Part shown: one piece after another, positions 8,502 to 64,000 of the stretch
Position numbering within the stretch: position 1 is the first letter of the stretch
How the letters are laid out: each line of letters begins with the position of its first letter
Made by a program: the position numbers and the translations under genes
Assembly (NCBI RefSeq): GCF_004353525.1
Contig: NZ_CP085524.1
Location: forward strand, 878,001-942,000
DNA: 64,000 nucleotides
Direction of reading: 5' to 3'
Source of the DNA: Zhaonella formicivorans
Lineage (GTDB): Bacteria; Bacillota; DUOV01; Zhaonellaceae
The notes under the pieces: generated by a model
What the model was told of the DNA's origin: nothing
Databases searched by the model: none
What the model saw: only the letters and a program-made list of their open reading frames with translations

Positions 8502-8532
8502 AAAGAGAGTAGAGCAATTCTACTCTCTTTTT
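8502..8532 (+). terminator. Terminator of spoVM
   Basis: Perfect 12-bp stem AAAGAGAGTAGA / TCTACTCTCTTT with a GCAAT loop and following T. Confidence 0.88.
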
Positions 8533-8544
8533 ATTGGCATAAAA

Positions 8545-8928: not shown

Positions 8929-9100
8929 AGCAATCACCCCCCCACAATTACTTATATGCCTGTATTGATTTGATATAACCGACGGCAAAAAAATTTTCAA
9001 TTCTAAACTAACAGAGGCCTTTCTTAAGAGGTAAAGAATCAGTTATGTCGAAGATAACTATTGTAAATCTTGGCAGCGTGCAGTCACGAGAGGGTTTTTT

Positions 9101-11181: not shown

Positions 11182-12112
11182 TGTGGGATCTGTTAGCACT
11201 AATTTCGTGGTAATTGATGCTGAAAGCAATATCTTGGTTCATCTGTACCTACGCACTCAAGGCCAACCAATCAGGGTGCTGCAGGAAGGGATGCAGTTGG
11301 TAAAAGATTCGCTGCCAAGTACTTTTACAATTGCCGGCGTTGGCACTACGGGCAGCGGAAGAATTTTAGCCGGTGTCATGATTGGAGCCGATGTAATAAA
11401 AAATGAAATTACCGCTCATGCTGTGGCCACATCTTTTCTGGTTCCTGAAGTTCAAACTATCCTGGAGATCGGGGGACAAGACTCTAAGATTATTATTTTA
11501 CGCAACGGGGTAGTAACCGATTTTGCAATGAATACGGTTTGTGCTGCCGGAACCGGATCATTTTTAGACCAGCAAGCAGCCCGTTTAAATATTCCCATTG
11601 AAAACTTCGGGGAAATTGCATTACGCTCAAAAAATCCTGTACGCATTGCAGGCAGATGTACGGTTTTTGCGGAATCGGATATGATTCATAAACAACAGAT
11701 GGGGCATAATGTGGAAGATATCATAGCCGGCCTTTGCGAAGCTCTAGTAAGAAATTACTTAAATAACATAGGGAAGGGAAAAGAAATCTTAGAGCCTATT
11801 GCTTTTCAAGGGGGAGTAGCTGCCAATTTAGGAATAAGGGCGGCTTTTGAAAAGGCTTTAAACAAGAAAATCATCATCCCAAAATATTTTAATGTTATGG
11901 GAGCAATTGGGGCAGCTATTTTGGCCAAAGAAGAGGTTAAAAACAGGAAAACAACCTCCTTTCGTGGTTTTGCAGCTGCCGAACAAGAATACCAGGCCAG
12001 CAGTTTTGAATGTACAGGGTGCTCCAATGCTTGTGAGATTATTAATATTCAGATGAACCGTTCTATTATAGCCCGGTGGGGCAGTCGCTGCGGCAAATGG
12101 GAGCATGTATAA
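11159..12112 (+). CDS. CoA-substrate-specific enzyme activase (BadF/BcrA/HgdC ATPase)
   Basis: ASKHA-fold ATPase of about 317 residues: GIDVGSVSTNFVV phosphate-1 block, GTTGSGR, EIGGQDSKII, and the CAAGTGSFLDQQ and AGRCTVF cysteines that bind the bridging [4Fe-4S] cluster. Family members use ATP hydrolysis to push a low-potential electron into a partner dehydratase or reductase. The C-terminal tail adds ECTGCSNAC, an extra cysteine group. ATG 11153 is only 2 bases from GGAGGA, so ATG 11159 (8 bases) is preferred. The start lies inside the upstream gene. Confidence 0.87.
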   Translation: MLGFLGIDVGSVSTNFVVIDAESNILVHLYLRTQGQPIRVLQEGMQLVKDSLPSTFTIAGVGTTGSGRILAGVMIGADVIKNEITAHAVATSFLVPEVQTILEIGGQDSKIIILRNGVVTDFAMNTVCAAGTGSFLDQQAARLNIPIENFGEIALRSKNPVRIAGRCTVFAESDMIHKQQMGHNVEDIIAGLCEALVRNYLNNIGKGKEILEPIAFQGGVAANLGIRAAFEKALNKKIIIPKYFNVMGAIGAAILAKEEVKNRKTTSFRGFAAAEQEYQASSFECTGCSNACEIINIQMNRSIIARWGSRCGKWEHV

Positions 12113-12141
12113 CAAAACGCGGTTGGCTGGATTATCACAGA

Positions 12142-12170
12142 TTACCACTTGGTAAATTATCACTTGGTAA
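12142..12170. promoter_or_regulatory. Tandem dyads upstream of the Fur-family promoter
   Basis: TTACC-ACTT-GGTAA (12142-12155) and TTATC-ACTT-GGTAA (12157-12170) repeat with a 15-bp period and end 2 bp before the -35 box. The first is a perfect inverted repeat. It is a candidate operator, although it does not resemble a classical Fur or PerR box. Confidence 0.55.
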
Positions 12171-12172
12171 AT

Positions 12173-12201
12173 TTGACAATTAGCTCACACTACATTATAA
12201 T
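12173..12201 (+). promoter_or_regulatory. Promoter of the Fur-family gene
   Basis: Perfect TTGACA (12173-12178), 17-bp spacer, perfect TATAAT (12196-12201). Confidence 0.85.
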
Positions 12202-12245
12202 TAAGTTAAATTAAATGAGAATGAATGTCAAGCGAGGTTGTAATA

Positions 12246-12677
12246 GTGAATCAAAGCTTAGAAGACATCTACAAACGGCTGCATGAGAAAGAATATAAAA
12301 TAACCCCACAGCGCCAAGTGATTTTGAAAGCATTTTTGGAGCATGTAGAAGAACATTTAAGCGCAGAAGAGGTATATAAGATAGTTAAAGAAAAAAACCC
12401 TGAAATTGGGTTGGCCACCGTTTATCGAACCTTGGATTTGCTGGCTGAGCTAGATATCCTACAGAAAATGGATTTCGGTGATGGGAAAAGTCGTTACGAA
12501 TTTAACGATCAGGAGGTTCATCACCATCACCATCTGATTTGTTTAAAATGCGGACATGTAGAAGAATTTGAAGATGATCTGCTGGAAACTCTGGAAGCTG
12601 CTATAAGCAGAAAAACTAACTTTGAAGTTTTAGACCATCAGCTGAAATTTTACGGCTATTGTCAAAAGTGTAGATAA
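12246..12677 (+). CDS. Fur-family metalloregulator
   Basis: About 143 residues. The N-terminal winged helix has YKITPQRQVILKAFLE and GLATVYRTLDLLAE. The dimerisation part has the HHHHH metal cluster, LICLKCGHVEEF and a C-terminal CQKC, giving the two CxxC pairs of a structural zinc site. Fur, PerR and Zur cannot be separated with confidence by eye. An ATG at 12225 is in frame, but GAGG at 12233 points to the GTG at 12246. Single-gene unit with its own promoter, tandem dyads upstream and a terminator. Confidence 0.87.
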   Translation: MNQSLEDIYKRLHEKEYKITPQRQVILKAFLEHVEEHLSAEEVYKIVKEKNPEIGLATVYRTLDLLAELDILQKMDFGDGKSRYEFNDQEVHHHHHLICLKCGHVEEFEDDLLETLEAAISRKTNFEVLDHQLKFYGYCQKCR

Positions 12678-37911: not shown

Positions 37912-39273
37912 ATGCATAGCTTTAAAAATCTTAAGTTTCATAAACGTAAAAATATGAGTATTTCCCTGAAATTTGGTTTTATTGGAGTTGGACTTATGGG
38001 GGGCAGGGTAGTGGATACCATAGCGCAGCTTTTAGGGCCGGACGGTAAACAGCTATATTCCACCTTGGCAATTAATATCAACAGGCAGGATCTTGATTCT
38101 TTGCAGCATGTTGGTAACAAACTACAGCTTAACTCACCGTTTAAGGCAGCTGGCAGGAATCCCGAGGTTGGTTATGAGGCACTTTCACAGAATGAAGATA
38201 CAGTGAAGAAAGCAATCGCAGATCTAGCCTTTCAGTCGGACTTTCTCTGGTTCGTGGCTGGCCTGGGAGGCGGCACAGGGACCGGGTCGATACTGCAGCT
38301 GGTGCAGTGGGCAGAGGACCTGCAGTCCATTGGCGTTGACTTCGGTATCATAGTGTCCCTCCCCAGGGTTCTAGACGGCTATCAGGAGAATAAAAACGCG
38401 CTGCTGGTACTGGAACAGTTAGACAGGGCTGTGGCAAGCCGGTTGTTCCCTGTGATTATTGTTGATAATGAATTACTTTGTACAAGGTACCTGGAAAAGA
38501 GAAAGTATGAAAATATAAGCGTTGACTGGACACAGCACAGCAATGCGGAGATCGCTGGGTTGCTGCATCAGATGAATATTATCACAACTCAAGTCCCATA
38601 CGGTCATAAACATTTTGACGGTGAGGAGTTCAGGCTGGTATTGAAAGCAGGCGGATGTATGCAGTTTGCTAAGACAATGATAGACATAAAAGATTTCCGG
38701 GATGAGTTAACTATTAAAAACTTATTGCAAAGGTCTATCCAGAACGGAACGGCATCGGGAGGATATGATGAAGAAGATGCTGTCATGGCGGGTATTTCAG
38801 TATTTGCGCCCTTTACCATGGCTAACGAAGTCTATGATGTGTCCAATGTCCGTATACTTGAAAATGCTGTTAAGGATATTTGCCCACGGACAGAAGTCAG
38901 GTGGGGTCATTATGTGGATTACAACACCAGTGCCCCACGGGTTGAAATTTATTCTGTAATCTCTGGCCTGGGGTTGCCCCGCAGGGTCCTGGATATACAG
39001 GAACTGCTCAAAGGACTCAAGCCCAAGGAGGCGGCCAGAAAGCTGGATTTAAATTTTGGGGTAGAAATAGAAGAAAAAAAGGAAAAACCCTCTGTTACTT
39101 CAGCTATTGTAAACCCCTTTGCCAGAAAGAAAGTTGAACAGCACCGGCAAGGTGAGCAGCCAGAAGGGAAGGTAGTACCTCTGTCACCGGAACCTAAACT
39201 AAACTGGCAAAATGCACAGGTAAAAGAAATACCGGCCTGGTTAAAGCGTTACCCAGATGAACCTGTTATATAA
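37912..39273 (+). CDS. tubZ: TubZ-like tubulin/FtsZ-family GTPase
   Basis: 453 residues. The nucleotide-binding core shows FGFIGVGLMGGRVVDTIAQ (T1) and VAGLGGGTGTGSILQ, the tubulin signature loop (T4), near residue 118. The C-terminal tail is disordered and basic-proline rich (about 395-453), as in TubZ, and lacks the FtsZ conserved tail. TubZ filaments treadmill and move TubR-tubC complexes during plasmid or phage DNA segregation. A cognate iteron array and a small winged-helix gene follow directly. AAAGGGTG precedes the ATG. Confidence 0.78.
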   Translation: MHSFKNLKFHKRKNMSISLKFGFIGVGLMGGRVVDTIAQLLGPDGKQLYSTLAININRQDLDSLQHVGNKLQLNSPFKAAGRNPEVGYEALSQNEDTVKKAIADLAFQSDFLWFVAGLGGGTGTGSILQLVQWAEDLQSIGVDFGIIVSLPRVLDGYQENKNALLVLEQLDRAVASRLFPVIIVDNELLCTRYLEKRKYENISVDWTQHSNAEIAGLLHQMNIITTQVPYGHKHFDGEEFRLVLKAGGCMQFAKTMIDIKDFRDELTIKNLLQRSIQNGTASGGYDEEDAVMAGISVFAPFTMANEVYDVSNVRILENAVKDICPRTEVRWGHYVDYNTSAPRVEIYSVISGLGLPRRVLDIQELLKGLKPKEAARKLDLNFGVEIEEKKEKPSVTSAIVNPFARKKVEQHRQGEQPEGKVVPLSPEPKLNWQNAQVKEIPAWLKRYPDEPVI

Positions 39274-40455: not shown

Positions 40456-41730
40456 GTGGCAGTTAAATCTCCTGTGATATTTAAACTGAAATATTATTCA
40501 CCTACAAACAAAAATAAAGCCAGGAATGTCGCTCACATAAACTATATTGCTAACCGTCCGGGAGTTGCTTTAGAAGAACCTAACCTGGAGGAAGAAGAAT
40601 TCAGCCTGGAAAGCGCCAATATCCACGTGAAATACATGGGTGAGCGACCCCGTTCCCACGGGCTTTTTGGCCCGGAGGAACATATACTTGACCCGCGGGC
40701 GGTTCAAAAGGAACTTAAAAACCACCAGGGATATGTCTGGCGGGCCATAGTATCACTGCGGGAAGAAGATGCTGTCAGGCTGGGATATACTGGGCGCGAG
40801 GCTTGGGAAAAAATGCTCCGCACTTCTGTCGAAGAAGCGGCGGGGAAAATGGGTATTAAACCAACTAACTTAAGATGGGTGGCTGCCTTTCACCAGGAAA
40901 AAGGCCACCCTCACGTTCACATGGTATTGTGGGAGAAAAGTCCTGAGAAATTACGTTGGACCAAAGAACAGGCAAAACAAGAACTTATTGCTATGAAAAA
41001 GACGTTTGTCAAAGAATTATATGCTGACGAACGGGCTAAGCTCTTAAGAGAGAAAACGGCGCTCAGGGAATACATGCGCAGCCAAACTAAGCTTAATGTC
41101 CAGGAAGCCAGGCTCAAATATAAGTCCTTGAGAAAGGATTTTAAAAAGCTCAGACTTGAAATTAAGTCTTTGGAAGGCAAAGAACCCGGTGTAGCTCCCG
41201 TGTTAAAAGTGAGCATACCCCCGGAACTTAAAGGCTTAGTAACTGATGCTTATAGTGAGCTGGCATATAAAATCAATTGTCTTGCAGCTATTATGCCTAA
41301 ACGCGGCAGGGTGGCCCTCAGGTTTATGCCTGAGCATGTAAAACAGGAAGCCAGGGCTGTGGCTGACTGGATCTTAAAGCAGCCTGAATTTAAGGGGCAA
41401 GTTGAAAGGATACAGGAAATAGCTGCGGAATACAAGAAACAATATACCATTAAAGATACTGCCCTGACAGAAGCTAAGGAGAAAGCTTACGCAGAAATCC
41501 GGGACCGGGTCGCCCAAATTGTTTTAAAGGGCGCTGCTGCCATCAATAAGGAGGAACGGTTAGAAAATGATATAATCAGGGGAGTCTGGAATAGTGCATG
41601 GCGGGCTGTTGAAAAAGAATGCAGCCGTGCTCAGGCAGAAATGCAGCTTGCCCAACAAAAAGAAGCATTGAGGGAAAAAGCCAAACAAAAGGCAAGGGAG
41701 CAAGGTTATGCTGAAAATGAAAAGGAATAA
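40456..41730 (+). CDS. MobL-type relaxase
   Basis: 424 residues from GTG. The N-terminal half has VIFKLKYYSP, NKARNVAHINYIANRPG and HQEKGHPHVHMVLWEK, where the three-histidine motif near residue 150 binds the catalytic metal. This pattern fits the MOB-L family of Firmicutes (pLS20 type). The C-terminal half is helical and charged. It would nick oriT and lead the strand into the channel formed by the genes from 43167 on. A Tyr in the first 50 residues is the likely nucleophile, not identified here. Confidence 0.85.
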   Translation: MAVKSPVIFKLKYYSPTNKNKARNVAHINYIANRPGVALEEPNLEEEEFSLESANIHVKYMGERPRSHGLFGPEEHILDPRAVQKELKNHQGYVWRAIVSLREEDAVRLGYTGREAWEKMLRTSVEEAAGKMGIKPTNLRWVAAFHQEKGHPHVHMVLWEKSPEKLRWTKEQAKQELIAMKKTFVKELYADERAKLLREKTALREYMRSQTKLNVQEARLKYKSLRKDFKKLRLEIKSLEGKEPGVAPVLKVSIPPELKGLVTDAYSELAYKINCLAAIMPKRGRVALRFMPEHVKQEARAVADWILKQPEFKGQVERIQEIAAEYKKQYTIKDTALTEAKEKAYAEIRDRVAQIVLKGAAAINKEERLENDIIRGVWNSAWRAVEKECSRAQAEMQLAQQKEALREKAKQKAREQGYAENEKE

Positions 41731-43166: not shown

Positions 43167-45059
43167 ATTAAAAAAAATATTAAAACCGGGTTCCTTATTG
43201 GTATTACAGTAGTTTCAATCCTTGATGTGCTGGTACTGCCGGCGCTTTTTTATTTTCCCGACTTTATCAGGTGGTACGGCTTTGGGCCGGCGCTGGGCAA
43301 ACTGGCAGCAGTCTTCGTGAAAAAGCCGTGGATGGGCACTGAACTGCTGGTAAAACAGGGAAGTTACCGTACTATATGGCTTTTTTTACAGCTGTTTTTA
43401 GGGGCAGGTCTGTTGTCTGTCCTTTGGAGGCCGGAACTGCCGAAAGTATCAAATAAAATAGCTGATGGCCTTGGAGGCCCTCCTGCTGCCGGAAGGGGCC
43501 AGTTTGGCACTTCTCGCTGGCGCACTGAAAAGGAAATCGCTAAAACCCTTGACTTGTATTTTACTGATCAAAACTTATCCAAAGGGGGAGTGGTAGTAGG
43601 AGCTGAAAAGCTGGACAGGAAAATGAAAGTTTATTTAGAGAGCCAGGACACCCATGTGTTACTACTGGGTGCAACCCGTTCAGGTAAGACCCGTTCAGTT
43701 ATTCTTCCCACTGTCTGGTGCATCGGAAAAACAGGTGAAAGCATGGTGCTGACCGACCCGAAGGGGGAGCTTTTTGAAAAAAGCTCAGGATATCTGAAAA
43801 ACCAAGGGTATGAGGTTATTTTGCTGGACCTTAGAGAAACTTTGCGGGGTAATCGCTGGAACGTGATGGAACCGGTCGTCAGGGCAGCCGGGGAGGGAAG
43901 GGATGATAAGGCTGTGGAAGCATCTTTGGACATAGCCCATGCCATAGTGTACCAAAAAGCACACAACAGCGACCCCATCTGGGAGCTGGGTGAAAAAGCC
44001 ATAGTGGCCGGTTTGATTCTGTCTGTTGCCTATGAGGCCGCAGATATAAGTCAGAAGCATATGTACAGCGTGGCTATGATGCTGGCCAGACTGGCCGTAT
44101 TTGATGAGGACGGTTATTGCCCCTTAAATGAATATGTTACCGGCCTTGGCATGCTGCACCCGGCAAGGGGAGCATTCTCAACGGCCCTGATGGCTTCGCC
44201 AAAGACGAGGGCTTCGTTTTTTGCCGGGGCCATGGCCAAACTGCAGCTCTTTACCGACCCTAATATTGCAGCTATGACAGCAATGCAGGACCATAACCTT
44301 ACCGCCATAGGAGCTAGACCAACGGCGGTATTTTTGGTTATCCCGGATGAAAAGTCAACCCGTTATCTTTTGGCCAGCCTGTACATAAACCAGGTCTACC
44401 AGGCTTTGGTGGAGTTAGCTCTAGAAAATGGCGGAAGGGTTAAAAACCGTGTCCATTTCCTGCTTGATGAGTTTGGGAACCTGCCGCCAATACCTGATAT
44501 GGATAAAAAGATCACAGTAGCCGGTGGCAGGGGGATGAAATTTACCCTGGCCCTCCAGGGTCTGTCCCAGCTAAAGCCCCTTTATGGTGAACGGTCACAG
44601 ACAATTACCGGCAACTGCCATACCTGGCTGTATTTAAGCACCACTGACCCTGATACGGCCAGAGTCATTTCTGAAAAGACTGGCAAATATACGGTACAGA
44701 CTGAAAGCTCTAACTATAACTACTCGGAAAACCGTGTGGGGGGCAGTACCGGCTTGGGACTGACGGGCAGGGCTTTACTTACCCCTGATGAAGTGGAACG
44801 TTGGCCAAAAGGCTCTTCATTGGTCCTGCAGGCAAGAGAAATGCCTGCAAGACTTCCTTTGCCTGACCTCTCTGAGTGGCCGGCGGATAAGGAACTGGAT
44901 GGGAGTTACCAGGGATGTTATGGCATCAACAAAATGCCTGATGTGCAGGTCTGGTATCCTGGTTTGAGTTTTACTGAAAAACTGCCTGAGGGTGGTGATG
45001 AAGTTGCCTGTAGTAAAGTAACGGGGGAAAATGTGCAAAACATTTTAGAACAATTATAA
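43167..45059 (+). CDS. VirD4/TraG-type coupling protein
   Basis: About 630 residues. N-terminal membrane segments (about 8-32 and 66-88) precede the ATPase domain: Walker A GATRSGKTR near 168-176, TDPKGELFEKSSGYL, Walker B VHFLLDEFGNLPPIPD near 432 and ALQGLSQLK. It docks the relaxase-DNA complex to the channel. A GTG exists at 43227, but that cuts the first helix; ATT at 43167 lies 9 bases after AGGAGG and opens IKKNIKTGFLIGITVVSIL, so an ATT start is likely. First gene of the transfer operon. Confidence 0.9.
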   Translation: MKKNIKTGFLIGITVVSILDVLVLPALFYFPDFIRWYGFGPALGKLAAVFVKKPWMGTELLVKQGSYRTIWLFLQLFLGAGLLSVLWRPELPKVSNKIADGLGGPPAAGRGQFGTSRWRTEKEIAKTLDLYFTDQNLSKGGVVVGAEKLDRKMKVYLESQDTHVLLLGATRSGKTRSVILPTVWCIGKTGESMVLTDPKGELFEKSSGYLKNQGYEVILLDLRETLRGNRWNVMEPVVRAAGEGRDDKAVEASLDIAHAIVYQKAHNSDPIWELGEKAIVAGLILSVAYEAADISQKHMYSVAMMLARLAVFDEDGYCPLNEYVTGLGMLHPARGAFSTALMASPKTRASFFAGAMAKLQLFTDPNIAAMTAMQDHNLTAIGARPTAVFLVIPDEKSTRYLLASLYINQVYQALVELALENGGRVKNRVHFLLDEFGNLPPIPDMDKKITVAGGRGMKFTLALQGLSQLKPLYGERSQTITGNCHTWLYLSTTDPDTARVISEKTGKYTVQTESSNYNYSENRVGGSTGLGLTGRALLTPDEVERWPKGSSLVLQAREMPARLPLPDLSEWPADKELDGSYQGCYGINKMPDVQVWYPGLSFTEKLPEGGDEVACSKVTGENVQNILEQL

Positions 45060-46594: not shown

Positions 46595-47226
46595 TTTTGA
46601 AAATTAATAATAAGCCATTGAAACAAGCTTCAAAAAGCAGTGAAGGTTTGGGAAATACGGTTCAAAACTGGCTGCCTTTCAGGGACCTGGAGGACTACCT
46701 GATAAGCACAAAGGATAACCGACTTATTGCTGTGCTGAGGGTAATGCCGTTAAATATTAATTTAAAGTCGGATAATGAAAAGGGCAGAATTATTTCAGCA
46801 GTACACGAAGCTTTTAACGGACTGCAGTTTCCCATTCAGATTTTCGCGGTACCAAGGCCCATCGATCTTGATATGTATATAAGAAAACTACAGGAACTGT
46901 CTTCCGATGCGGGTAATTTTAAAAGAAAAACCTTGCTGCTTGACTATATAAGGTATGTAACCGGAATGGTTGCAGGTGGTGAAGCGCTGGAAAAGCGCTA
47001 TTATATTCTTCTTTCTGCTGAAAAAGGGAAAAATTCCAAAGCAGAGCTGCTGCAAAAGGCTCATGAATTAGGCTCTGGTTTATCACGGGCGGGATTAGCT
47101 GTTTCAGTTTGCGATGGGCAAGAGATTTTTGACCTTATGTTTACTTTTCATAACCCTGTGCAGGTGGCTTTTGAAAAAGCTCATGAAATTGGTATTAACA
47201 CTTATGTAACTTATTACGGTGACTAG
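46591..47226 (+). CDS. VirB4 N-terminal-domain-like protein
   Basis: 211 residues starting TTG and overlapping the upstream gene by 4 bases. LPFRDLEDYLISTKDNRLIAVLRVMPLNINLKS resembles the N-terminal region of VirB4/TraC-type ATPases, here encoded separately. No P-loop is present. It probably acts as a complex with the following ATPase. Confidence 0.6.
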   Translation: MILKINNKPLKQASKSSEGLGNTVQNWLPFRDLEDYLISTKDNRLIAVLRVMPLNINLKSDNEKGRIISAVHEAFNGLQFPIQIFAVPRPIDLDMYIRKLQELSSDAGNFKRKTLLLDYIRYVTGMVAGGEALEKRYYILLSAEKGKNSKAELLQKAHELGSGLSRAGLAVSVCDGQEIFDLMFTFHNPVQVAFEKAHEIGINTYVTYYGD

Positions 47227-47236
47227 GAGGTGCTTT

Positions 47237-49033
47237 ATGAGAAAAAAAAAACAAAAAAGTGTACAGGTTTTGCAGTCAGGCATTGTGGATCAGTTTGCGC
47301 CTGTTGTTTTGAATTTCGCCCAAAACCATATTACCTTTGGAGAACAGGTTGGCCAGGTATTAGTTATTTTAAACTATCCCCCCAAAGTTCATGCTGCCTG
47401 GCTTTCCCGGATGTCTAACATGCCGGGAGTAGTCTGTTCAGTTCATATCGTACCCACAGACCCAGCCAGGCTGATTGAAAATATAAACAGGAGCATAGGA
47501 GAACTGACCGGTATTCTTGAACGGGGCGGGAATGCCCTCACTGTCAGCAGGGCGGAACAGTCAATCAAAGACGCTCAGGATTTGCTCAGGAAAATCGACC
47601 AGGAACAACAACAGGTTTTTAATGTGGTTGTTTGTCTGTTGGTTTTGGCTAATGATATGGAAGTCCTTGAGAGGAGAGTCAGGCAGGTACAGGCAGCCCT
47701 TGCAGCTGCGGGAATGAGGGGCAGAAACCTGATGTTCCTGCAGGAGCAGGGCCTTTTGGCAGCAGGGCCATGGTGTCATTGTCCGGAAGAAGTGTCCCGT
47801 ATGGCAAAAAGAAATATGCCCAGCGAAACGGTGGCAGCCGGTTTCCCGTTCACTGCCAGCGGTATAAACGATGGTTCGGGTATAATCATCGGCAAGGATG
47901 CCGAGGGGGGTTTGGTACTGATTGATATATGGAAGCGCGGCGGCGACAGGACAAACTCCAACTGGCTTATTCTTGCCAAACCGGGAGCCGGGAAATCTTT
48001 TACAGTTAAAATGATGATCTTGCGGGAACTGGCTCAGGGCAGAAAGGTTATAGTTATTGACCCTGACAGGGAATACAAGCTCATGTGCCACGAACTGGGA
48101 GGTATGTGGATAAACTGCGGGGGAGGCGAAGCAAAAATTAACCCCCTGCAGGTCAGGGAGACCGGAAATATAAAAGATGAAGACAATCAAGAAAACGACA
48201 CGGTGGTACAAAGCGCCCTGGCTGTCCACCTGCAGACTGTCAGGACTTTTTTTGCCCTCTACATGCGGGACTTAACGGATTTGGAAAAAACGGCCCTGGA
48301 AGAGACGCTGGTGGAAGTATACAGGGAATTTGACATAACCTGGGACACAATACCACGGGAAGTGAAGTTATGGCCCACCATGGCGGATTTATATGCAAGA
48401 GTACGGGAAAGGGCAGAAAAAGAACCTGGTGTATATGGCAGACTGGCGGTGCTGTTAAAGAGGCCGGCGGAAGGCGCCGATGTGGGCCTCTGGGCTGGTC
48501 AGACATCGGTGTCTGCGGATAGCGATTTTGTTGTTCTTGATGTTTACAACTTGCAGCAGGCCAACGATGAGGTCAGGAGGGCGCAGTACTTCAATGTTCT
48601 TACCTGGGCCTGGTCAAAGATAGCCGAAGACAGGACGGAGCAGGTTATTCTGGCCGTTGACGAGGCGTGGCTCCTGGCAGACCCGCAGACACCGCAGGCG
48701 CTGCAGTTTTTGAGGGAAACTTCGAAGCGGATTAGAAAATATGAAGGAGCGCTCTGGGTTATTTCCCAGAACGTGGTGGACTTCCTGGACCCGGCAGTGG
48801 CCAGGCACGGCCAGGCCCTGCTGGACAACCCGTGTTATAAATTGCTGCTGGCGCAGGGTGAAAAGGATTTGCAGGCTCTGGCCGGACTGATGAATCTTTC
48901 GGAGGCGGAAATTGAGCTTTTGGCTACTGCAAAAAGAGGGGAGGGACTGATGGTTGCAGGTTCCCAGAGGATAAGAGTTAAAATTGAGGCTGCTCCCTAT
49001 GAAATGCAGTATCTGACGGGTGGGGGACGGTAA
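47237..49033 (+). CDS. VirB4-type conjugation ATPase
   Basis: 598 residues from ATG 47237 (GGAGGTGC). Walker A KPGAGKSFTVK near 246-256, VIDPDREY, Walker B-type EQVILAVDEAWLLADPQTPQ near 473, and LRETSKRIRKYEGALWVISQNVVDFL. It energises substrate transfer and channel assembly. The N-terminal domain is short because part of it is in the preceding gene. Confidence 0.9.
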   Translation: MRKKKQKSVQVLQSGIVDQFAPVVLNFAQNHITFGEQVGQVLVILNYPPKVHAAWLSRMSNMPGVVCSVHIVPTDPARLIENINRSIGELTGILERGGNALTVSRAEQSIKDAQDLLRKIDQEQQQVFNVVVCLLVLANDMEVLERRVRQVQAALAAAGMRGRNLMFLQEQGLLAAGPWCHCPEEVSRMAKRNMPSETVAAGFPFTASGINDGSGIIIGKDAEGGLVLIDIWKRGGDRTNSNWLILAKPGAGKSFTVKMMILRELAQGRKVIVIDPDREYKLMCHELGGMWINCGGGEAKINPLQVRETGNIKDEDNQENDTVVQSALAVHLQTVRTFFALYMRDLTDLEKTALEETLVEVYREFDITWDTIPREVKLWPTMADLYARVRERAEKEPGVYGRLAVLLKRPAEGADVGLWAGQTSVSADSDFVVLDVYNLQQANDEVRRAQYFNVLTWAWSKIAEDRTEQVILAVDEAWLLADPQTPQALQFLRETSKRIRKYEGALWVISQNVVDFLDPAVARHGQALLDNPCYKLLLAQGEKDLQALAGLMNLSEAEIELLATAKRGEGLMVAGSQRIRVKIEAAPYEMQYLTGGGR

Positions 49034-49034
49034 A

Positions 49035-49988
49035 ATGCAGGCTTTTGCCAGGGCTATTATTGCTCTTTTTCCGCCTGAAGATATTGTTAAAATGATACTA
49101 ACAGTCATCTTGTTGCCCATTTTGTTTTTGTCTTTGTTTCTGGTTGGGCCAACATTAATACTAATGAAGATACCTTTGGCCGGGCCGGTTGAATTAAAAT
49201 ATTATCAGGACGCTGCAGAAAAAATTAACAGGGAAATGCAGGATGTTGAGGAGCCGCCCTGGACTTCCCTTGACTGGAGAAAGCTGGTGGCTGTTGATGC
49301 CGTGCTTTTTCAGCAGCGGTTTAACCTTGCCTCTCCTGAAAGGGCCCAGTGGCTGGCCGAAAAGTTTACCCGTATAGTGGAGGAGAAACGGACAGAAAAA
49401 AGATGGGACAGTGAAAAGCAGGAATATGTTACAAAGACTGTGGTTGTGCAAAGGTATGTAACTTTTGACGAAGTATTGCAGGAGCTGGGCATATACGATA
49501 AAAAGCAGATGGTGGAAAACTACCTTAGCGTGGATTTAAGCCTCCTGGCGAATGTGGATGAGGGTATTGACACGGAAGGTGATTTTAGTCCGGTTGAAGG
49601 CAATTTCACCTGGCCCCTTCCCGGTTATTACAGGGTGAGTAGTAAGTTTGGCCCCAGGATCCATCCGGTTACTGGGAAAAATTCCTTCCACAGGGGTATA
49701 GACCTTCCGGCTCCCAGGGGGACCAAGATAGTTGCGGCAAAAGACGGTATTGTGGTCGGAACAAGTTACAGCCCTGTGGAAGGCAAAACAGTCGTCATTA
49801 AACATGATTTCGGGTTTACCAGGTATGCCCATATGGACAGTTTTGCTGTTACAAGGGGACAGAAGGTTAAAGCAGGTGAAAAGATTGGGGAAGTCGGGAG
49901 CACCGGCTTTTTTAGTACGGGAGCGCATTTGCACTTTGAAGTAAGGCCGGACAACAAACCGGCAGACCCGTTGCAGTTTTTCAGATGA
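49035..49988 (+). CDS. Membrane-anchored M23 peptidoglycan hydrolase
   Basis: 317 residues. An N-terminal transmembrane helix (about 20-45) is followed by a linker and a C-terminal M23/LytM domain: RVSSKFGPRIHPVTGKNSFHRGIDLPAP with His and Asp ligands, and GAHLHFEVRP. It opens the cell wall for the transfer channel. It overlaps nothing but is tightly packed behind the ATPase. Confidence 0.88.
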   Translation: MQAFARAIIALFPPEDIVKMILTVILLPILFLSLFLVGPTLILMKIPLAGPVELKYYQDAAEKINREMQDVEEPPWTSLDWRKLVAVDAVLFQQRFNLASPERAQWLAEKFTRIVEEKRTEKRWDSEKQEYVTKTVVVQRYVTFDEVLQELGIYDKKQMVENYLSVDLSLLANVDEGIDTEGDFSPVEGNFTWPLPGYYRVSSKFGPRIHPVTGKNSFHRGIDLPAPRGTKIVAAKDGIVVGTSYSPVEGKTVVIKHDFGFTRYAHMDSFAVTRGQKVKAGEKIGEVGSTGFFSTGAHLHFEVRPDNKPADPLQFFR

Positions 49989-51232: not shown

Positions 51233-52479
51233 TTAAGCAACCTCGTGGGGTTCTATCACCTCCAGACCTAGTTTCTTAGCTTCAGCAATAATCCTTTTAA
51301 CTCGGAACTTTTCCTGTTTTTGTTTGGCTTTTTCAAAGGATGTTTCATCGTAATCAGCATCATTTTTTAACAGGTTGTATATTATTACGAGAACTTTTCT
51401 GGCTAATGCAACAAGAGCTTTTTTGGCGCCACGGCGTTGTTTGATTTTCCAATACCAGGATGATAAGTAGCTTTGACGTATTCGGGTGATGCACCAAGCA
51501 ACTTCACATAGGATCCGTTTTAAATAGGTGTTACCGTTGGTGGTACGAGTGGACTTTTTTTTCCTGCACTTTCATTGTTACCGGGGCTTAAGCCCGCCCA
51601 GGAACAGATATGTTCAGCGGTTTTAAAACGACTCATATCAATTCCGATTTCCGCCAAAATGGCTGCTGCTGCAGTTTTATCAATGCCCGGTATGCCGTCT
51701 AGTTGCTCTAGTTGTCTTTGATACTGAGCCAGTTTTTCTTCTAAGTTTTGCTCTACTTGACGGAGATGCTCGTAATGCTGATCTAGCCAACCTAACAATA
51801 GCTTTAGAAACTCTCTTTGATGAACATCCATTTTGCCATTGACAGCCTGTTTGATCTCATGGAGCTTATTCTTAGCACGCCCCTTTACAAAATTCTCTAC
51901 TTCCCGGGCGGATATTTTCCCATGGTGGCTAAGATGATCCATAATCGCCCGGCCCGATACGCCGAAGATATCGGTCAGGAAGGTAGAGAGCTTAAAGCCG
52001 CAGCTTTGTAAGTGTTTTTCGATCCGGTTTTTCTGTGACGTAATTTCCTCGATGATACTTTTGCGGTACCGGGTCAGATTACGGAGTTCCCGGATTGGTT
52101 TGGAGGGAACAAAACTTCCTTCTAATAATCCGGCACGCAAAAGGGTAGCTATCCATTCGGCGTCCTTCATGTCGGTCTTTTTACCGGGTACATTTTTCAT
52201 ATGCCGGGCATTGGCAACAATCAAAACCATACTGCCGTCAAAGGCTTCTTCCAACACGTTATATACAGGCTGCCAATAGATGCCGGTGCTTTCCATTGCA
52301 ACATGCCGACAGTTCTCATTTTCTAGCCAAACTTTCATTTCATCTAGCCCGGCAAGAAGGGTGGAAAAGGTGCGGATGGTTTTAACCGGTTCCCCGTCAA
52401 CATTGCCTTTTAATAGGCAGGCTACAACCGTTTCTTTGTGGACATCAAGACCACAACATATTTCCAGGATGTCTTGCAT
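51233..52479 (-). CDS. IS110-family transposase, frames joined by a -1 shift
   Basis: From ATG 52479 (GGAG upstream). The N-terminal DEDD RuvC-like domain has CCGLDVHKETVVACLL, MESTGIYWQPVYNVLE and KKTDMKDAEWIA. The C-terminal transposase_20 part has IPGIDKTAAAAILAEIG and AGLSPGNNESAGKK. The frame ends at 51520, but a -1 shift at the A8 run (T8 at 51555-51562) continues STRTTNGNTYLKRILCEVAW to the stop at 51233. The A-AAA-AAA tract is a typical slippery site, so programmed frameshifting, slippage or a lost base are all possible. Element ends were not identified. Confidence 0.82.
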
Positions 52480-52620
52480 GTAACTCACTCCTGCTCCAAA
52501 GAATTTCAGGGATGATTGCTCGAGAAATAAAGATTTTAGTACCCGTGCTGTTCCCAAGTCCTTAAGAACAAGGGGCGACAATTGGCTGTGCTCAAAAGCA
52601 ATCAAGTTAGGTTATTTAAC
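52480..52620 (-). other. Non-coding leader of the IS110 transposase, possible bridge-RNA region
   Basis: In IS110-group elements the non-coding left end upstream of the transposase encodes the bridge RNA. This stretch has no better gene and lies in that position. No structure was confirmed. Beyond it, 52620-53055 is gene-free; I see a near-repeat AAAATC(C)AACCTTTG twice and the inverted repeat AATGCA / TGCATT, nothing else. Confidence 0.3.
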
Positions 52621-55397: not shown

Positions 55398-56679
55398 ATG
55401 AAGTATAACCAGAACTCAAGAATTTTGCAAATAACAGAAAAGACTTTAATCATTGGTGTAGATGTAGCTAGCGAGACAAATTACGCCAGAGCTTTCGATT
55501 ACAGAGGCGTAGAACTAGCTAAGCTACTAAAATTCAATAATGACAACAACGGCTTCAAGACATTTTCTGAGTGGGTAAAAAGTGTGGCAAAACAACAGCA
55601 GAAGCAGCAGGTAATGGTTGGGATGGAGCCTACGGGACACTATTGGTTTACCTTTGCCCAGCATCTTAAGGATCACCAGCTGAAAATAGTACTAGTGAAT
55701 CCGTTTCACGTAAAGCGAAGCAAAGAATTGGATGATAATAATCCGACCAAAAATGACCGAAAGGACCCAAAACCATTGCCATGCTGGTAAAAGACGGTCG
55801 ATACATGGAACCGTACATTCCCGAAGGAATTTACAGCGATTTACGAAATGCAATGGAAACCCGCTTAAGATTAGTGAAGCAGCTTAACAGCATCCGAAAC
55901 AGAGTTAAACGCTGGATAAGCATATATTTCCCGGAGTTCAACAGAGTCTTTGGGGATTGGGAAGGCAAAGCAGCAATAGTAACGCTAAAAGAGTTTCCAA
56001 CACCGGATAAAGTACTTGAAAAAGGCGTCGAAGGCATAGTTGCCAGCTGGAGAAAAGAAATCAGCAGAGCTGTTGGAGTTAGACGAGCCAGCCAACTAGT
56101 TGAGGCAGCAAAGATATCAGTAGGAGTACGAGAAGGATTAAGAGCAGCTCAAAATGAACTTGCCACACTACTAGAAGAATATGAAATGCTGCAGAGGCAA
56201 TATGAAAGGACAATGGCTCTAATAGAAGAATTAGCCATGCAGATTCCCGGTATTGAAGAAATGCTAAAAATCAAGGGAGTAGGCCTCATAGCAGCAGCAG
56301 GGTTTATAGCTGAAGTAGGGGATATTACAAGGTTTGAACATCGAAAGCAGGTACAGAAGCTGGCGGGACTAAGCCTGAAAGAAAATAGCTCAGGAAAGCA
56401 TAAGGGCCAAACAACTATTAGCAAACGAGGGCGAAAAAGGCTAAGATCGTTGTTATTTCAAGGGATTATGCCCATAGTGGCTAAGAACAACGAATTTAAA
56501 GAACTACACCAGTACTACACAACAAGGCCACAGAACCCGCTCAAAAGAAACAGTCGCTAGTACTCTTATGCTGTAAGCTCATAAGGATATTTTACACCTT
56601 ACTGAGAAAAGGCGTAGCTTATGACCCACAAAAAATGATGAGTGATATAAGAAGGCAAGAATTACAGGAAGCAGCCTAA
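55398..56679 (+). pseudogene. IS110-family transposase with two frameshifts
   Basis: Starts at ATG behind AGAGGAGGT. Frame one: IIGVDVASETNYARAF and GMEPTGHYWFTFAQHL, ending KNDRKDPK. Frame two (after a missing A in AAAA 55769-55772): MLVKDGRYMEPYIPEG up to IPGIEEMLKIKGVGLI and AGLSLKENSSGKHKGQ. Frame three (after AAAA 56543-56546): KQSLVLLCCKLIRIFYTLL up to QELQEAA. Restoring one A at each run gives a full DEDD transposase of about 426 residues. It is a different IS110 branch from the copy at 51233. Confidence 0.78.
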
Positions 56680-57221: not shown

Positions 57222-57989
57222 ATGTTTGAAGCCGGGGAAATGCCAAAAGCGATAGCCAGGACTGTTATCGAAATGAAGTGCCAGCCAGTACCGGCTGCAA
57301 AATGGAGTTTGGGAAACCAGTTAATAATGTTTGCTAACGGGACCAGTGATGCCAGGGGTTTTAAACAATGGCAGGAGGTAGGCCGTTATGTTAAAAAAGG
57401 CGCTAAAGCGTTTTATATCCTGGGTCCTTTGACTAAAAAGGTTAAAGTTTTGGATGAAGACACGGGAGAAGAAAAAGAAAAGGTTGTAGTATATGGTTTT
57501 AGATCAATTCCCGTTTTTGCTTATGAGGACACGGAGGGGAAAGAGCTTGAAAAACCGGATTACAGACCGGCGGAACTACCGCCCCTGGTTAATGTCGCTA
57601 AAAAATATGGTGTTTCTATAAAATACAGTCCTTTTACAAAAAAGTTTTATGGCAGCTTTAATTTAATCAAAAAGGATATAACGTTGTGCAGTCACGATGT
57701 GGACGTATTTTTCCACGAACTGGCCCATGCAATCCACAATACTGTCAGGCCGTTAAAAGGCGGCCAGGACAGGGAGCAGGAGATTGTTGCAGAAACAGTT
57801 GCCGCAGTTCTTTGCCAGATTTATGGCTACGAGGGGTATATATACCAGGGCTATAAGTACATTCAAAAATATGCTGAAGCGGAAAATGGAGCAGGGACTG
57901 TAAAAGCAATTATGAGAGTGCTGGGTGACGTTCAAAAGGTTTTGGAAATAATTTTAGATACTCAGGAAAGTTTAGAGACAGCCTGTTAA
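57222..57989 (+). CDS. ArdC-like antirestriction / zinc metallopeptidase
   Basis: 255 residues from ATG 57222. The N-terminal ssDNA-binding ArdC region has WSLGNQLIMFANGTSDARGFKQW and GRYVKKGAKAFYILGPL. The C-terminal metallopeptidase part has FFHELAHAIHN (HExxH) and an acidic third-ligand region (EQEIVAETVAAVLC). ArdC proteins protect incoming ssDNA in the recipient. The frame is open upstream to AGGGAGGA at about 57171 and reads KIGQAVNQILQ, like the family N-terminus, but no standard start codon is found there. Confidence 0.78.
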   Translation: MFEAGEMPKAIARTVIEMKCQPVPAAKWSLGNQLIMFANGTSDARGFKQWQEVGRYVKKGAKAFYILGPLTKKVKVLDEDTGEEKEKVVVYGFRSIPVFAYEDTEGKELEKPDYRPAELPPLVNVAKKYGVSIKYSPFTKKFYGSFNLIKKDITLCSHDVDVFFHELAHAIHNTVRPLKGGQDREQEIVAETVAAVLCQIYGYEGYIYQGYKYIQKYAEAENGAGTVKAIMRVLGDVQKVLEIILDTQESLETAC

Positions 57990-58862: not shown

Positions 58863-58899
58863 AAAATGATAGGTGGTGTCCAGTGTGACATCATTTTTT
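58863..58899 (+). terminator. Possible terminator
   Basis: AAAATGAT / ATCATTTT with T run to 58899; the inner pairing is weak. Confidence 0.4.
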
Positions 58900-58999: not shown

Positions 59000-60310
59000 G
59001 TGTGTATTGACGTGGACAAGTTGACAGAGGGAACTTGGATCGTAAATACAATCAAACACTTATCAGAACTAAAGCAAAATACAACGGAGCTTACTTTTTT
59101 CGAAGCTACAGAACAAGCAGGTAAAGCCGGTGCATTGCTTGGTCGATTAGTTGCTGACAAGCAAGAGATCGTGCCATACCAAAAAGCAAGAATATTTGCC
59201 CGTCAGTCCAGCATTAGTAGTGGCGAACTGATCACTTATTTAAATTATTTACGACAAGCTGAAAAAATAGATTATACAGTCGATGAAATGGGAAGACCTA
59301 AAGAAATAGAGGTATATTGTTTCTCGGGTAAAGAAGCATTGGAGACCGTATCTACAATATATAATAAACTAGAGCCACAGGAAGAGGAACAAGCTAGTTT
59401 AATAGGATTAAATTATACTTTTGAGCTACCTAGAGTTCCTGACGAACTTAAAGAGTTTCTGACGAAAAATGGGGTATCTGAAGAGTGTGCAGCCACAACA
59501 ATCGAACTTCAGAAGACATTTGGACTTGTGAAAGTAAGTGGAGAAGGTTCCGATCAAGTTTTATATAACGAGTATTCTTTTAATGGAGATCCACAGCGAG
59601 TAGCAAAGGCTTTATCTGCACTAGATAATGACGAACGCGATATGGTAATGGAAGTCCAGCGATTGGTTTCGGAAACTCCAGGATTTCTCATTGAGGATAT
59701 ACCCTCTACAATTAAGCCACATATAGTAGAAATGATGGAGGGCGTAGGGTTACTTGATGGGATAACAGTCCAATCGGCAATTGGTTCGGCTACCTTCCTG
59801 ACAACTCCGCAGTTAAGGGGTCCAGGGGTTGGAAGTTTTTTACTCTCCGAAGACGTGTTTCATAAAGCAAAGATTTTGTTAAGTTGTTTAAGATTTGGCC
59901 AAACCAAGTCCTCATTTGGAAGAGGAAAGATTTCGACTTTAGAAAAGATGTTGAATATAGTAAACAAATTATTACGTGGAGAATGGGTCGGACCTGCAAC
60001 AGCTATCGGCGAGGATTATGCGTTGTTGGAGATGGATGGAGTTATCCAAACAAGACCCACCGAACCCTACGGATTTTATATGAAATTAAGGCAATATGAA
60101 GTTGGAGAACTGGTTCGACAAATGATAACCTATAATAGAGTTGCTCTAGAGATAGAATCGAATATCGGAGATCTGCTTAAAGAACAACCGAGCAGTTGCG
60201 TAATTCCAGAAACAAGAAAAAGTCAGATTTTAGCGAAGTCTACAGCTCCAGTTGAAGCCTTAAGAAATAAGATGCTTTCAACCTTAAGGACAGGAGGTGT
60301 TAGTAGATGA
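59000..60310 (+). CDS. Unrecognised protein of a nuclease operon (436 aa)
   Basis: Starts at GTG 59000 or 59012 after GGGGTG. Mixed alpha/beta soluble protein; RQSSISSGELITYLNYLRQAEKIDYTVDEMGRPKEI looks like a winged helix (about 65-105). A second repeat-like region follows, PDELKEFLTKNGVSEECAATTIELQ. No catalytic motif is visible. The stop overlaps the start of the nuclease gene (ATGA), so they form one unit. A DNA- or target-recognition partner of the nuclease is the simplest guess. Confidence 0.6.
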   Translation: MCIDVDKLTEGTWIVNTIKHLSELKQNTTELTFFEATEQAGKAGALLGRLVADKQEIVPYQKARIFARQSSISSGELITYLNYLRQAEKIDYTVDEMGRPKEIEVYCFSGKEALETVSTIYNKLEPQEEEQASLIGLNYTFELPRVPDELKEFLTKNGVSEECAATTIELQKTFGLVKVSGEGSDQVLYNEYSFNGDPQRVAKALSALDNDERDMVMEVQRLVSETPGFLIEDIPSTIKPHIVEMMEGVGLLDGITVQSAIGSATFLTTPQLRGPGVGSFLLSEDVFHKAKILLSCLRFGQTKSSFGRGKISTLEKMLNIVNKLLRGEWVGPATAIGEDYALLEMDGVIQTRPTEPYGFYMKLRQYEVGELVRQMITYNRVALEIESNIGDLLKEQPSSCVIPETRKSQILAKSTAPVEALRNKMLSTLRTGGVSR

Positions 60311-61599
60311 CGAATGATAATAAATCGGTTAAGAAAGGTCTTGGTTTTGAGTACCAAGTTTCGGGTATGTTTCAAAGCCAAGGTTACTTAACCAGAAGGG
60401 GTATTCCCCTTCAATATGGGGTTTCAAATCATGATGTAACTGATATTGATGTATTAGGAATAATTTTTACCAATCCTTTTCAGGGACATAGAATAATTTG
60501 TGATTGTAAAAATAAAGCGAGATCTAAGCCTTATGAACGGATATTTTGGGCAAAAGGGCTTGGGGAGTTTGTGAAAGCAAATAATGTATTTGTTGCTTTA
60601 AATAAGACCCAGTGGGAAATTATTCGTTTTGCATCCACTGGCGGTGTGAAGGTGCTAACAAGTGAAATTTTAGAGGAATATAAAGACAAAAGATATTCTA
60701 TTGGTTTAGCCGATGGAGATTTTTATAGTGAATATGAAAGTAAACTTCAAAAAGTCGCAAAATCCAACTCATACATAAATAGTATTTTGTCTAATACCAG
60801 AAAGCTTTATTTACATGAGAATCCTTATGTTGCTGTAAATATTTGCTTGGAGTTTTTGAAAAGCGTTGCTCGCGGTCTTGATCACGCTGGCAATCATAAT
60901 AATGATCACCGAGATACATTGAAGTTTCTCGCTTGTGAGCTAACTATCTTGGTAGGACTCCAGATCCTTTGGATTTGTTCTGATGTTTTAGGGTTGCCGG
61001 GGGGAGCAAGACGTAATCATATTACATCGAAACTTACATATGGAGATTTAGACCCGAAAACCGCTAATGATTTAATAAGTACTGTAAAAGACTTGGCGAA
61101 TGAGATAATTAGATCATCAGTTCCTAAATCAGTTGCTCCTAAAAGTATTGACCTAGGTTCGATCGATCCTCCCCCATATACAGATAGCCTAATCGGGTTA
61201 ATCGAAAGAGCATTAGCTCGTCCAAATTTATATCTAACTATGCCACAACACCTTGACTTTCTGCTTTTTGAACAAGGACTAAAAGGTAAGGAATATTCTG
61301 AGGAGCAACTGATGAATGTATTCGGGTATGGTTTATCCGATGAGAGATTTAAGGTCTCACGGAACATTCTTTCATTTGTCAGGGAGTCCTGCGGTTTGGA
61401 TTGGAAATCTTTATGGAATAAGGGAGAAATCCAGAAACAAGTATCAACTAATCATGTAAAACCTAAGGAAGTGATTGCAACTAGGGAGGACATAAAACCG
61501 ACAAAATTAAAGGAAAATGATAAAGCAGATAACAGACCTCAACAAGTAACAACCGAAGATGAGTTGAGTAGTTTGAATAAGGTCGGATGGACTGAATAA
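60307..61599 (+). CDS. PD-(D/E)XK-type nuclease protein (430 aa)
   Basis: The N-terminus GLGFEYQVSGMFQSQGYLTRRG, then TDIDVLGIIFTN and RIICDCKNKA, is the Mrr/RecB-like endonuclease core: an early Glu, Asp in DIDVLG and D-x-K in CDCK. The central and C-terminal parts (about 150-430) are helical and unassigned, and the tail is charged and likely disordered. ATG overlaps the preceding stop. Likely acts with the 59000 protein in defence or restriction. It could also be a solitary type IV-like enzyme. Confidence 0.65.
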   Translation: MTNDNKSVKKGLGFEYQVSGMFQSQGYLTRRGIPLQYGVSNHDVTDIDVLGIIFTNPFQGHRIICDCKNKARSKPYERIFWAKGLGEFVKANNVFVALNKTQWEIIRFASTGGVKVLTSEILEEYKDKRYSIGLADGDFYSEYESKLQKVAKSNSYINSILSNTRKLYLHENPYVAVNICLEFLKSVARGLDHAGNHNNDHRDTLKFLACELTILVGLQILWICSDVLGLPGGARRNHITSKLTYGDLDPKTANDLISTVKDLANEIIRSSVPKSVAPKSIDLGSIDPPPYTDSLIGLIERALARPNLYLTMPQHLDFLLFEQGLKGKEYSEEQLMNVFGYGLSDERFKVSRNILSFVRESCGLDWKSLWNKGEIQKQVSTNHVKPKEVIATREDIKPTKLKENDKADNRPQQVTTEDELSSLNKVGWTE

Positions 61600-61739
61600 G
61601 TCGTAATTACTAGTCTAGAGAGCCTCTAGACATTTATTTTTCTAAAGATCGAACTTGAAATTTTATATTTTAATACACTTGGGTTTATGTTTTTTGTAAT
61701 ATAAAAAACAAGATTCCAGAACTTAATTTTTTAATTTTT

Positions 61740-62406: not shown

Positions 62407-64000
62407 TCATCTTACCAACCTAGGTTCCCATTTCAGTCTCAATTTTTCTTCTATTAGGTGTTTTAATATATATATTCTTATTTTTATCTGACTTATTTCA
62501 GAATCTAACATAAATATATTGCCTTCGGCCGTTTTCGAAGCTTTTAAAATTCGACGATTTCCAGTAAGGTCAACTATTTCTGAGTCGGGAAAAAGATTAT
62601 CATCTAAATCCCAACACACTATACCTGCAAGTCTATCAAAAGAATGATTTAGCCGATTTCCTAATTTGTATTTAAATTCGATAAATTGGTAATGAGGCCT
62701 TGCAAGATCTAAAGAACTTTTTGTAGCAACTAAAGCATCATAGCCCTGCCTCGTATCGTAATCAATAACTTTAAAGGGAAAAATATCAGGATATTTTATT
62801 GATAATATTAAAAATAACGCAAAAACACCCTGCTCCTGCCTGGGTTCAATTAATTCTATCCCATCATCAGTTATGATAGTTTTCTTTTTTTTAAGGTAAT
62901 TTTGCCTTCGTGAAAAATCTTTAAGTTCATCTTCTGCTTTTTTATAAATTTTAACCTCGTTTTCCATATCTAAAAAATCTTCATATTCATTTGAACTTCT
63001 TATTTCATCAATAATTTTTTCGGCTATATCCTTTATTTTAATCAAAAGATCATTAGGTGTATTTTCTATTGAACCTCTGTTAGCAGTTAACTCTAAGCCC
63101 TGGCAATTTATAAACCCATGAAATTTAGTCCATTCACTCTTTTGGAAAAACCAATCGTTTACTCTTTGAACAGGTATATAATCTTTTGCTAACCAAATGC
63201 CATATCTTTCTGAAACTGTGTATAATCCTTCACGTCTACCCGATTTTAGACAAGGATTGTAATCTCTCTTAGCTTGATCTCCTTCTACACTTATAAAAAT
63301 ATCCATTGTGATATGTCTTTTTTCAGGAATGGTAATATTTTTGAACATCCAATATTTAGTAAAATACTTGCCACGGTTATTTTCTTTTATATTATCTTTT
63401 TTGAAATGTGAATCTTTAAATCTTTCTGGTGGAAAGACGTGCCCAGGATGAATGGTTTTATAATCTTTTGAGTCAACCCCTCTTACCAATACTTCGCATT
63501 TTGCCCATCTCCTGTTTTTTCTTTCTGGATATAAAGCTAATTCAAAAGAACCAAGTTTTGTAAACCATAAGATATAGTCAATCATTTCTTGGGTTGTAAA
63601 ATGATCATTGTTATTGTTGTTATATCCTATAATTTTAATATTAGTACTATGGGTTTTTATATTGATGCTATTTTTACTAATGGTATAATTGACAATTGGA
63701 ACTTTTCGCTGATTTAAAATAATTAAAGGTTTATCAACCCATGCTTTGATAATAGGCCCATTAAGAGCTATTGTTGTAACTTCAATTTTATTAGAATTGT
63801 AGTAAATTTTGGTTCCATGACCCTTATAACCAATCGTTTCCTCTTCTTGTTCCTGGTATTTAGCACTGTAACCTAATGAAAAAAATTTTTTAATTTCTTC
63901 TTCATTCATTCCTACTCCATTATCAAATACGGATATAACTAATTGCTCTCCTTCATCCGTATTTTCCATTTGTGCAGATATGGAAATTTTTGTAGCTCTT
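62407..64000 (-). CDS. GHKL ATPase with C-terminal PD-(D/E)XK-like domain, 5' end outside the window
   Basis: The frame stays open to the window edge; an internal ATG is at 63969, but RATKISIS before it looks like the N-box region, so the start is beyond 64,000. G1 is DNGVGMNEEEIKKFFSLGYSAK and G2 is IGYKGHGTKIYYNS, the Bergerat fold of Hsp90/MutL/histidine kinases. The middle is unassigned. Near the C-terminus TRQGYDALVATKSS and then YQFIEFKYKLG give Asp and E-x-K of a PD-(D/E)XK nuclease. Likely a defence effector in which ATP controls the nuclease (inference). Confidence 0.68.
   Translation of the reverse strand, partial: RATKISISAQMENTDEGEQLVISVFDNGVGMNEEEIKKFFSLGYSAKYQEQEEETIGYKGHGTKIYYNSNKIEVTTIALNGPIIKAWVDKPLIILNQRKVPIVNYTISKNSINIKTHSTNIKIIGYNNNNNDHFTTQEMIDYILWFTKLGSFELALYPERKNRRWAKCEVLVRGVDSKDYKTIHPGHVFPPERFKDSHFKKDNIKENNRGKYFTKYWMFKNITIPEKRHITMDIFISVEGDQAKRDYNPCLKSGRREGLYTVSERYGIWLAKDYIPVQRVNDWFFQKSEWTKFHGFINCQGLELTANRGSIENTPNDLLIKIKDIAEKIIDEIRSSNEYEDFLDMENEVKIYKKAEDELKDFSRRQNYLKKKKTIITDDGIELIEPRQEQGVFALFLILSIKYPDIFPFKVIDYDTRQGYDALVATKSSLDLARPHYQFIEFKYKLGNRLNHSFDRLAGIVCWDLDDNLFPDSEIVDLTGNRRILKASKTAEGNIFMLDSEISQIKIRIYILKHLIEEKLRLKWEPRLVR

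Follow-up and report, generated by a model that had tools for sequence, protein, structure and literature searches.

The window, that is, the whole stretch of DNA analysed here (64,000 nucleotides of Zhaonella formicivorans), covers positions 878001-942000 of one single 3.31-Mb contig (G000:C1) and contains two adjacent genes, here called gene A and gene B (Table 1). Both open reading frames are present and overlap by four bases, as had been claimed in a reading of the DNA made without database searches (the sequence-only reading). Gene A probably starts at the GTG at 59012 rather than at 59000, because this codon (VDKLTEG) aligns with the ATG start (MDKLT; ATG-GAT-AAA) of the closest gene A copies, those of the Bacillus loci L019 and L020, which are 77% and 75% identical, respectively. 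Terminator-like hairpins lie before gene A and after gene B, and therefore the pair looks like its own transcription unit, although six such sites were found against 2.4 expected from shuffles and a single site is weak evidence. No inverted repeat common to the three closest copies was found upstream of gene A, and the idea of a conserved operator at this position was dropped.

The placement of the pair in an integrated conjugative element (ICE) was borne out by genes for a MobL relaxase, a coupling protein and a VirB4/TraG-type ATPase, together with an integrase ORF recognised by eye. The element also contains a TubZ/FtsZ-like GTPase gene just before the relaxase gene, which is unusual for a chromosomal element. 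The antirestriction gene noticed beside the pair was identified by its ArdC N-terminal domain. The neighbour on the other side had been taken for an ATPase-nuclease; it is a GHKL-type ATPase, but Pfam revealed no nuclease domain in it. This gene and an OLD-like ORF, both at the integrase end of the element, are possible further cargo defence genes. An IS110-type-like transposase ORF pair is present in two near-identical copies, each split over two overlapping frames; a third IS110 transposase is encoded in one frame.

Table 1. Features of the window and of the adjoining DNA (record L129).
Feature	Position	Strand	Remarks
TubZ-type GTPase	37912-39273		PF00091 + PF22453
MobL relaxase	40456-41730		
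T4SS coupling protein (TraG/VirD4-type)	43227-45059		
TraG/VirB4-type ATPase	47219-49033		
M23 peptidase	49020-49988		
IS110 transposase	51520-52605		
IS110-type-like transposase ORF pair	55398-56560; L129:16061-17342		Two copies
ArdC N-terminal domain protein	57222-57989		Upstream of the pair; PF08401, 24.8 bits vs cut-off 22.6
Terminator-like hairpin	58871-58896	+	Upstream of gene A; consensus match only
Gene A	59012-60310	+	About 432 aa; predicted winged-helix chain; no family; 59000-60310, 436 aa in the ORF list
AGGAGG ribosome-binding site of gene B	60292-60297	+	Inside the 3' end of gene A; recognised by eye
ATGA, shared stop of gene A and start of gene B	60307-60310	+	4-base overlap; read from sequence
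Gene B	60307-61599	+	430 aa; predicted PD-(D/E)XK domain (residues ~8-130), all-helical C-terminal part and disordered tail
Intrinsic-terminator-like hairpin	61613-61631	+	Directly 3' of gene B; consensus match only
GHKL-type ATPase	62407-64000 and on (L129:908-2626)		Downstream of the pair; PF13589
OLD-like ATPase-TOPRIM ORF	L129:3327-5066		Beyond the window; motif recognition by eye only
Tyrosine integrase ORF	L129:8272-9519		Beyond the window; recognised by eye

Profile and structure searches of both proteins had been proposed with the sequence-only reading. At E-values up to 1, the two window proteins matched none of the families of Pfam, NCBIfam or PADLOC, including the system models of PADLOC 2.0.0 (0 families), and against PHROGs the best E-values were only 0.11-0.3, with nothing below 0.01. 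Among the PDB sequence profiles, gene B was without any match and the best for gene A had an E-value of 0.45 or worse. The remark that the partner of the nuclease belongs to no recognised family thus holds for both proteins.

On the other hand, fold comparison supported the assignment of gene B as a nuclease. In the structure model (pLDDT 86.5, alignment of 83 sequences), residues 8-130 superimposed on AF1548 (1y88) with a Z-score of 13.9 and an rmsd of 2.6 Å over 113 aligned residues, the top of the fold list, followed by other matches of the nuclease domain to 1xmx (Z 11.9), Can2/Card1 (Z 9.4-11.8) and EndoMS (Z 10.6). The active-site residues E15, D46, D48 and K68 are found in all 83 homologues, position 66 carries D in 75 of them and E in the other 8, and T45 is kept in 82; R78, G84 and G246 are also invariant. 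This conservation of the active site is far beyond chance. The motifs pointed out earlier, DIDVLG (containing D48) and CDCK (containing D66 and K68), are thus real and conserved, and the layout is that of PD-(D/E)XK enzymes, with an acidic residue on the second strand, (D/E)-x-K on the third and a Glu on the first helix. By modelled fold and by motif, gene B encodes a PD-(D/E)XK nuclease, the presumed activity of which is the cutting of DNA. Residues 135-380 are helical in the model. When 92 members of the family (46 A and 46 B proteins) were scanned with Pfam, the sole match was Mrr_cat (PF04471), in two members with a best E-value of 0.0017, and the remaining 90 matched no Pfam family at an E-value of 0.01.

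Gene A had been described as a winged-helix-containing protein, and its structure model (pLDDT 85.5) agrees with this description; from the predicted succession of helices and hairpins, about four winged helices can be read in tandem. The top rows of a Foldseek search were tandem winged-helix chains of RPC62 and TFIIIC (E-values 1.3e-3 to 9e-3). The model shares with RNA polymerase III RPC62/RPC82 and with TFIIIC the tandem winged-helix arrangement, but superposition was poor, with TM-scores of 0.15-0.18 in Foldseek and a VIA-align Z-score of 8.0 at best, indicating the same kind of arrangement and not kinship; a kinship with RPC62 was rejected on these values. In the fold lists, which are filled by single domains, no row assigned a fold to gene A past about residue 195 or to residues 135-380 of gene B; given this make-up of the lists, the result does not mark the folds as novel. 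In the homologue alignment, gene A is conserved as strictly as gene B. Its most conserved part is internal, which is partly built in at residues 330-339, since a pattern on these residues served to retrieve the genome loci; outside this pattern, the conserved region 270-345 includes Y340, K291, G300, G309 and P270. In a Vibrio parahaemolyticus plasmid (NZ_CP047989.1, 20802-23115), gene A is split by an ISVa2-type transposase gene, and sister plasmids have gene A whole.

A co-occurrence analysis had likewise been suggested. Scanning of the genome collection with the gene A alignment gave 122 matching stretches; 83 of these encode a relative, and 80 loci were kept. Gene B lies directly downstream of gene A in 78 of the 80; in the other two (L074 and L075) the contig breaks off immediately after gene A or within it. 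Both genes were also present at each of the 10 viral-contig and 7 plasmid loci fetched. Searching from gene B instead, 14 plasmid records were matched, and an A-type gene adjoined gene B, by profile or coordinates, in all 13 that were checked, one Burkholderia glumae record being left out. Exactly one gene B was found in each of the 38 genomes searched whole. Over the 80 loci, the pairwise distances of A and B were strongly correlated (Mantel r 0.954; none of 1000 permutations as high), which is what a pair inherited together would give. Among 89 pairs from non-duplicate loci, 39 have a 4-base and 27 a 1-base overlap; the starts were chosen by script, so that odd values are partly start errors. 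The duplicate loci L012, L017, L018, L024, L063 and L078 were omitted from the overlap and neighbour counts.

In a small local search, the most distant plasmid copies, from B. glumae, Mycolicibacterium and two Streptomyces (L130, L131, L132 and L133), matched the B profile with E-values of 4e-12 to 7e-19 and the A profile with 8e-8 to 3e-6, and the 4-base overlap is kept in the three annotated copies. These four form a remote branch of the two-gene module, outside the reach of the A pattern, and one of them adjoins ThiF and multiubiquitin genes.

Relatives of the pair were found in Bacillota, Pseudomonadota, Actinomycetota, Bacteroidota, Acidobacteriota, Thermodesulfobacteriota, Myxococcota and other phyla, and one on a contig from a Lokiarchaeota bin, a kind of assembly that can be contaminated. 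The carriers are plasmids, P2-like phages and prophages, ICEs and chromosomal islands, and most of the plasmid records annotate the proteins as hypothetical. The pair is rare. It was absent from all 100 relatives of the window's genome, and in the window's phylum only two of 398 genomes had it, namely the window's own and one with a divergent copy that has an A-type gene. In the order of the genome carrying locus L033, four of 398 matched: the L033 genome itself, one true copy with gene A, and two nuclease-domain fragments without it. In phage records, no match was found to gene B or to the gene A of viral contig L016 by tblastn, or to the pair of viral contig L011 by blastn. Likewise, E. coli genomes gave no match to the L016 pair by blastn, a search at the DNA level that reaches down to about 65-70% identity.

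In a FastTree phylogeny of gene A, the sequences cluster by phylum above chance, but with 22 label changes against a minimum of 14, which makes horizontal transfer likely. Copies in Pseudomonas, Stenotrophomonas and an uncultured gammaproteobacterium are nearly the same, with common stretches of up to 11.5 kb at roughly 88% identity. The ratio dN/dS was computed for 12 of 16 sequence pairs, one of which was identical and gave no ratio and one of which was saturated; the ten finite values were 0.02-0.13 for gene A and 0.01-0.17 for gene B. Both genes are under purifying selection.

The pair fills cargo slots that stand empty, or carry other genes, in related elements. In the viral contigs L016 and L011 it occupies, in opposite orientation, the slot between gpS and gpV, where it adjoins a P2-like phage's gene for tail completion and its baseplate genes. 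Yersinia phage 201.16 has the same flanks and an empty slot, with 73 bases between gpV and gpS, and compared with this phage L016 has positions 7535-10089 in place of about 105 bases. In phage 56.17 the slot carries a retron-type reverse transcriptase. In the Yersinia P2-like phages 06.16-2 and 31.17 it holds one hypothetical protein of about 353 aa (L136:972-2033; L137:972-2036), a candidate cargo gene. In L033, a conjugative element carries the pair between its DUF2958 and DUF736 genes, and a Citrobacter plasmid with the same flanks has only a helix-turn-helix gene between them. The L033 insert (9928-12302, 2.4 kb) is hardly more than the pair. The transferred unit accordingly consists of the two genes. 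The P2 hotspot treated by Rousset et al. (PMC9122126) is a different one, adjoining cos, with retrons and restriction enzymes as cargo.

The neighbours of the pair were far richer in defence-type families than random genes. With PADLOC (E-values up to 1e-8), 245 families were matched for 149 neighbours and 425 for another 144, compared with 31 for 135 genes drawn at random from the same genomes; among the 25 control matches listed, none was hit by more than one protein. These counts are of families, which overlap, and not of proteins, and show enrichment rather than its exact size. The neighbour scan comprised 293 of 301 listed ORFs, after exclusion of one ORF longer than 1400 aa and of those shorter than 100 aa, and the gene calls are simple ORF picks, some of them spurious; the control comprised 135 of 140 picked ORFs from 20 of the 38 genomes. 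Named defence neighbours included GajA/GajB, LmuB (Lamassu), RmrA, type I-III methyltransferases, IIG enzymes and a DRT-labelled model. Gabija genes are directly beside the pair in L062 and L068, although a few of the loci are near copies, among them these two from Nocardioides, which have one common Gabija neighbourhood. N6-methylase genes were found within 12 kb of gene B in four of the 38 genomes (0.39 expected, P 5e-4) and within 20 kb in five (0.64 expected, P 3.5e-4). Other neighbours were integrases, resolvases, phage tail genes and plasmid genes, and many loci have no recognised defence neighbour.

No neighbour family was common to more than eight of the loci compared, and methylases stand beside some copies only; nothing in the neighbourhood thus points to a third component or a cognate methyltransferase. 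A third gene of the system was accordingly dropped as a candidate, and the operon is without the cognate methyltransferase that defines type I-III restriction-modification.

Residues 8-130 of gene B share the alpha-beta core and the active-site layout of Mrr_cat-type nucleases (AF1548/1y88, Mrr) and of EndoMS/NucS, but gene B differs from them in its distinct helical part at the C-terminus and in being obligately paired with another gene, and its family matches the Mrr_cat sequence no better than stated above. The CARF-PD-(D/E)XK nucleases Can2/Card1 of type III CRISPR have the same nuclease domain fold; however, the match spans the nuclease part only and Pfam scans revealed no CARF domain in A or B. 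Gabija and PARIS resemble the pair in being mobile two-gene operons with a nuclease-type effector in defence neighbourhoods. Gabija consists of an OLD-type ATPase-TOPRIM nuclease and a UvrD-like helicase, both of which are absent from this pair.

A literature search that covered titles, abstract openings and passages found no description of the pair, and an accession search with six protein ids found no paper. The DefensePredictor study (PMC13092281) reports validated systems in E. coli, 13 of them with PD-(D/E)XK domains. Overlap of the pair with these systems appears unlikely, since no E. coli genome matched the L016 pair at the DNA level. Such an absence from E. coli, seen in one DNA search, would also explain why E. 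coli-based screens missed the pair. We have filed the pair as an undescribed variant of nuclease-based defence, with a putative role in defence.

The best explanation, which we regard as fairly probable, is that A and B together make up an immune module which is self-contained, moves horizontally and would protect its carriers against phages or plasmids. The suggestion that the pair may well be a new defence system is supported by the lack of a named family, by the nuclease fold of gene B, by the obligate and mobile pairing and by the enriched neighbourhood. The pair's mobility, slot-filling, defence company, rarity and an active site intact in every copy are more easily reconciled with an immune module than with a core function. 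In this module, B would be a metal-dependent PD-(D/E)XK DNA nuclease with an Mrr-like catalytic core and a helical domain of its own, and A a tandem winged-helix protein that could bind both nucleic acid and B, as a sensor or an adaptor. A may recognise a feature of invading or replicating foreign DNA, such as a structure or a modification, or else an infection state, and would then place or unleash B on the DNA. The A-B complex, the sensing by A and the cutting by B are what we infer. The module has no methyltransferase of its own, and therefore self and non-self must be told apart in another way; self could be spared via structure, modification or infection state and not via a host methyl mark. 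As a chain of winged helices conserved as strictly as B, A is a natural candidate for this discrimination.

The same gene order, regulator before nuclease with translational overlap, would also suit a toxin-antitoxin or addiction module, as would the predicted winged-helix fold of A and the carriage on plasmids, prophages and ICEs. A would then check B by binding and perhaps repress the operon, and loss of the element or shut-off by infection would free B to damage the host chromosome. Classical toxin-antitoxin proteins are smaller than A and B, which at about 350-430 aa each are large for such a pair. Moreover, the three closest copies share no operator-like repeat upstream of A, and A is most conserved internally, although the fetching of loci by residues 330-339 contributes to this. 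We consider an addiction module unlikely.

A housekeeping role in mobile elements, be it DNA processing in transfer, junction resolution or exclusion of sister elements, is still less probable. The pair does often adjoin conjugation and replication genes, but it also occurs in P2-like phages and chromosomal islands, and it is missing from the complete records of near relatives that have these phage and element backbones. The least credible alternative, and in our view a very improbable one, is a far-diverged Mrr-type (type IV) restriction system in which the target of B would be modified-base DNA and A would serve only as an accessory regulator. That Mrr_cat gave the only Pfam match in the family and that AF1548 heads the fold list would agree with such an origin, whereas the general lack of Pfam matches speaks against it and the strict conservation of A suits a dispensable regulator poorly.

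Returning to the immune module, we tentatively propose a more specific form of it, which we find conceivable but stop short of calling probable: an ancient two-gene immune system, so far undescribed, that does without methyltransferase, ATPase or helicase, in which the winged-helix chain senses foreign versus own DNA, the paired Mrr-like nuclease executes, and the bare two-gene cassette spreads between the phages, ICEs and plasmids of many phyla. If this is true, it adds a compact system without a recognised ATP-using part, and the discrimination of self from non-self must reside in the winged-helix protein or in the nuclease itself. What the system senses would then be a directly testable question that involves only two genes. 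The work also names an unannotated family found in phages, ICEs and plasmids.
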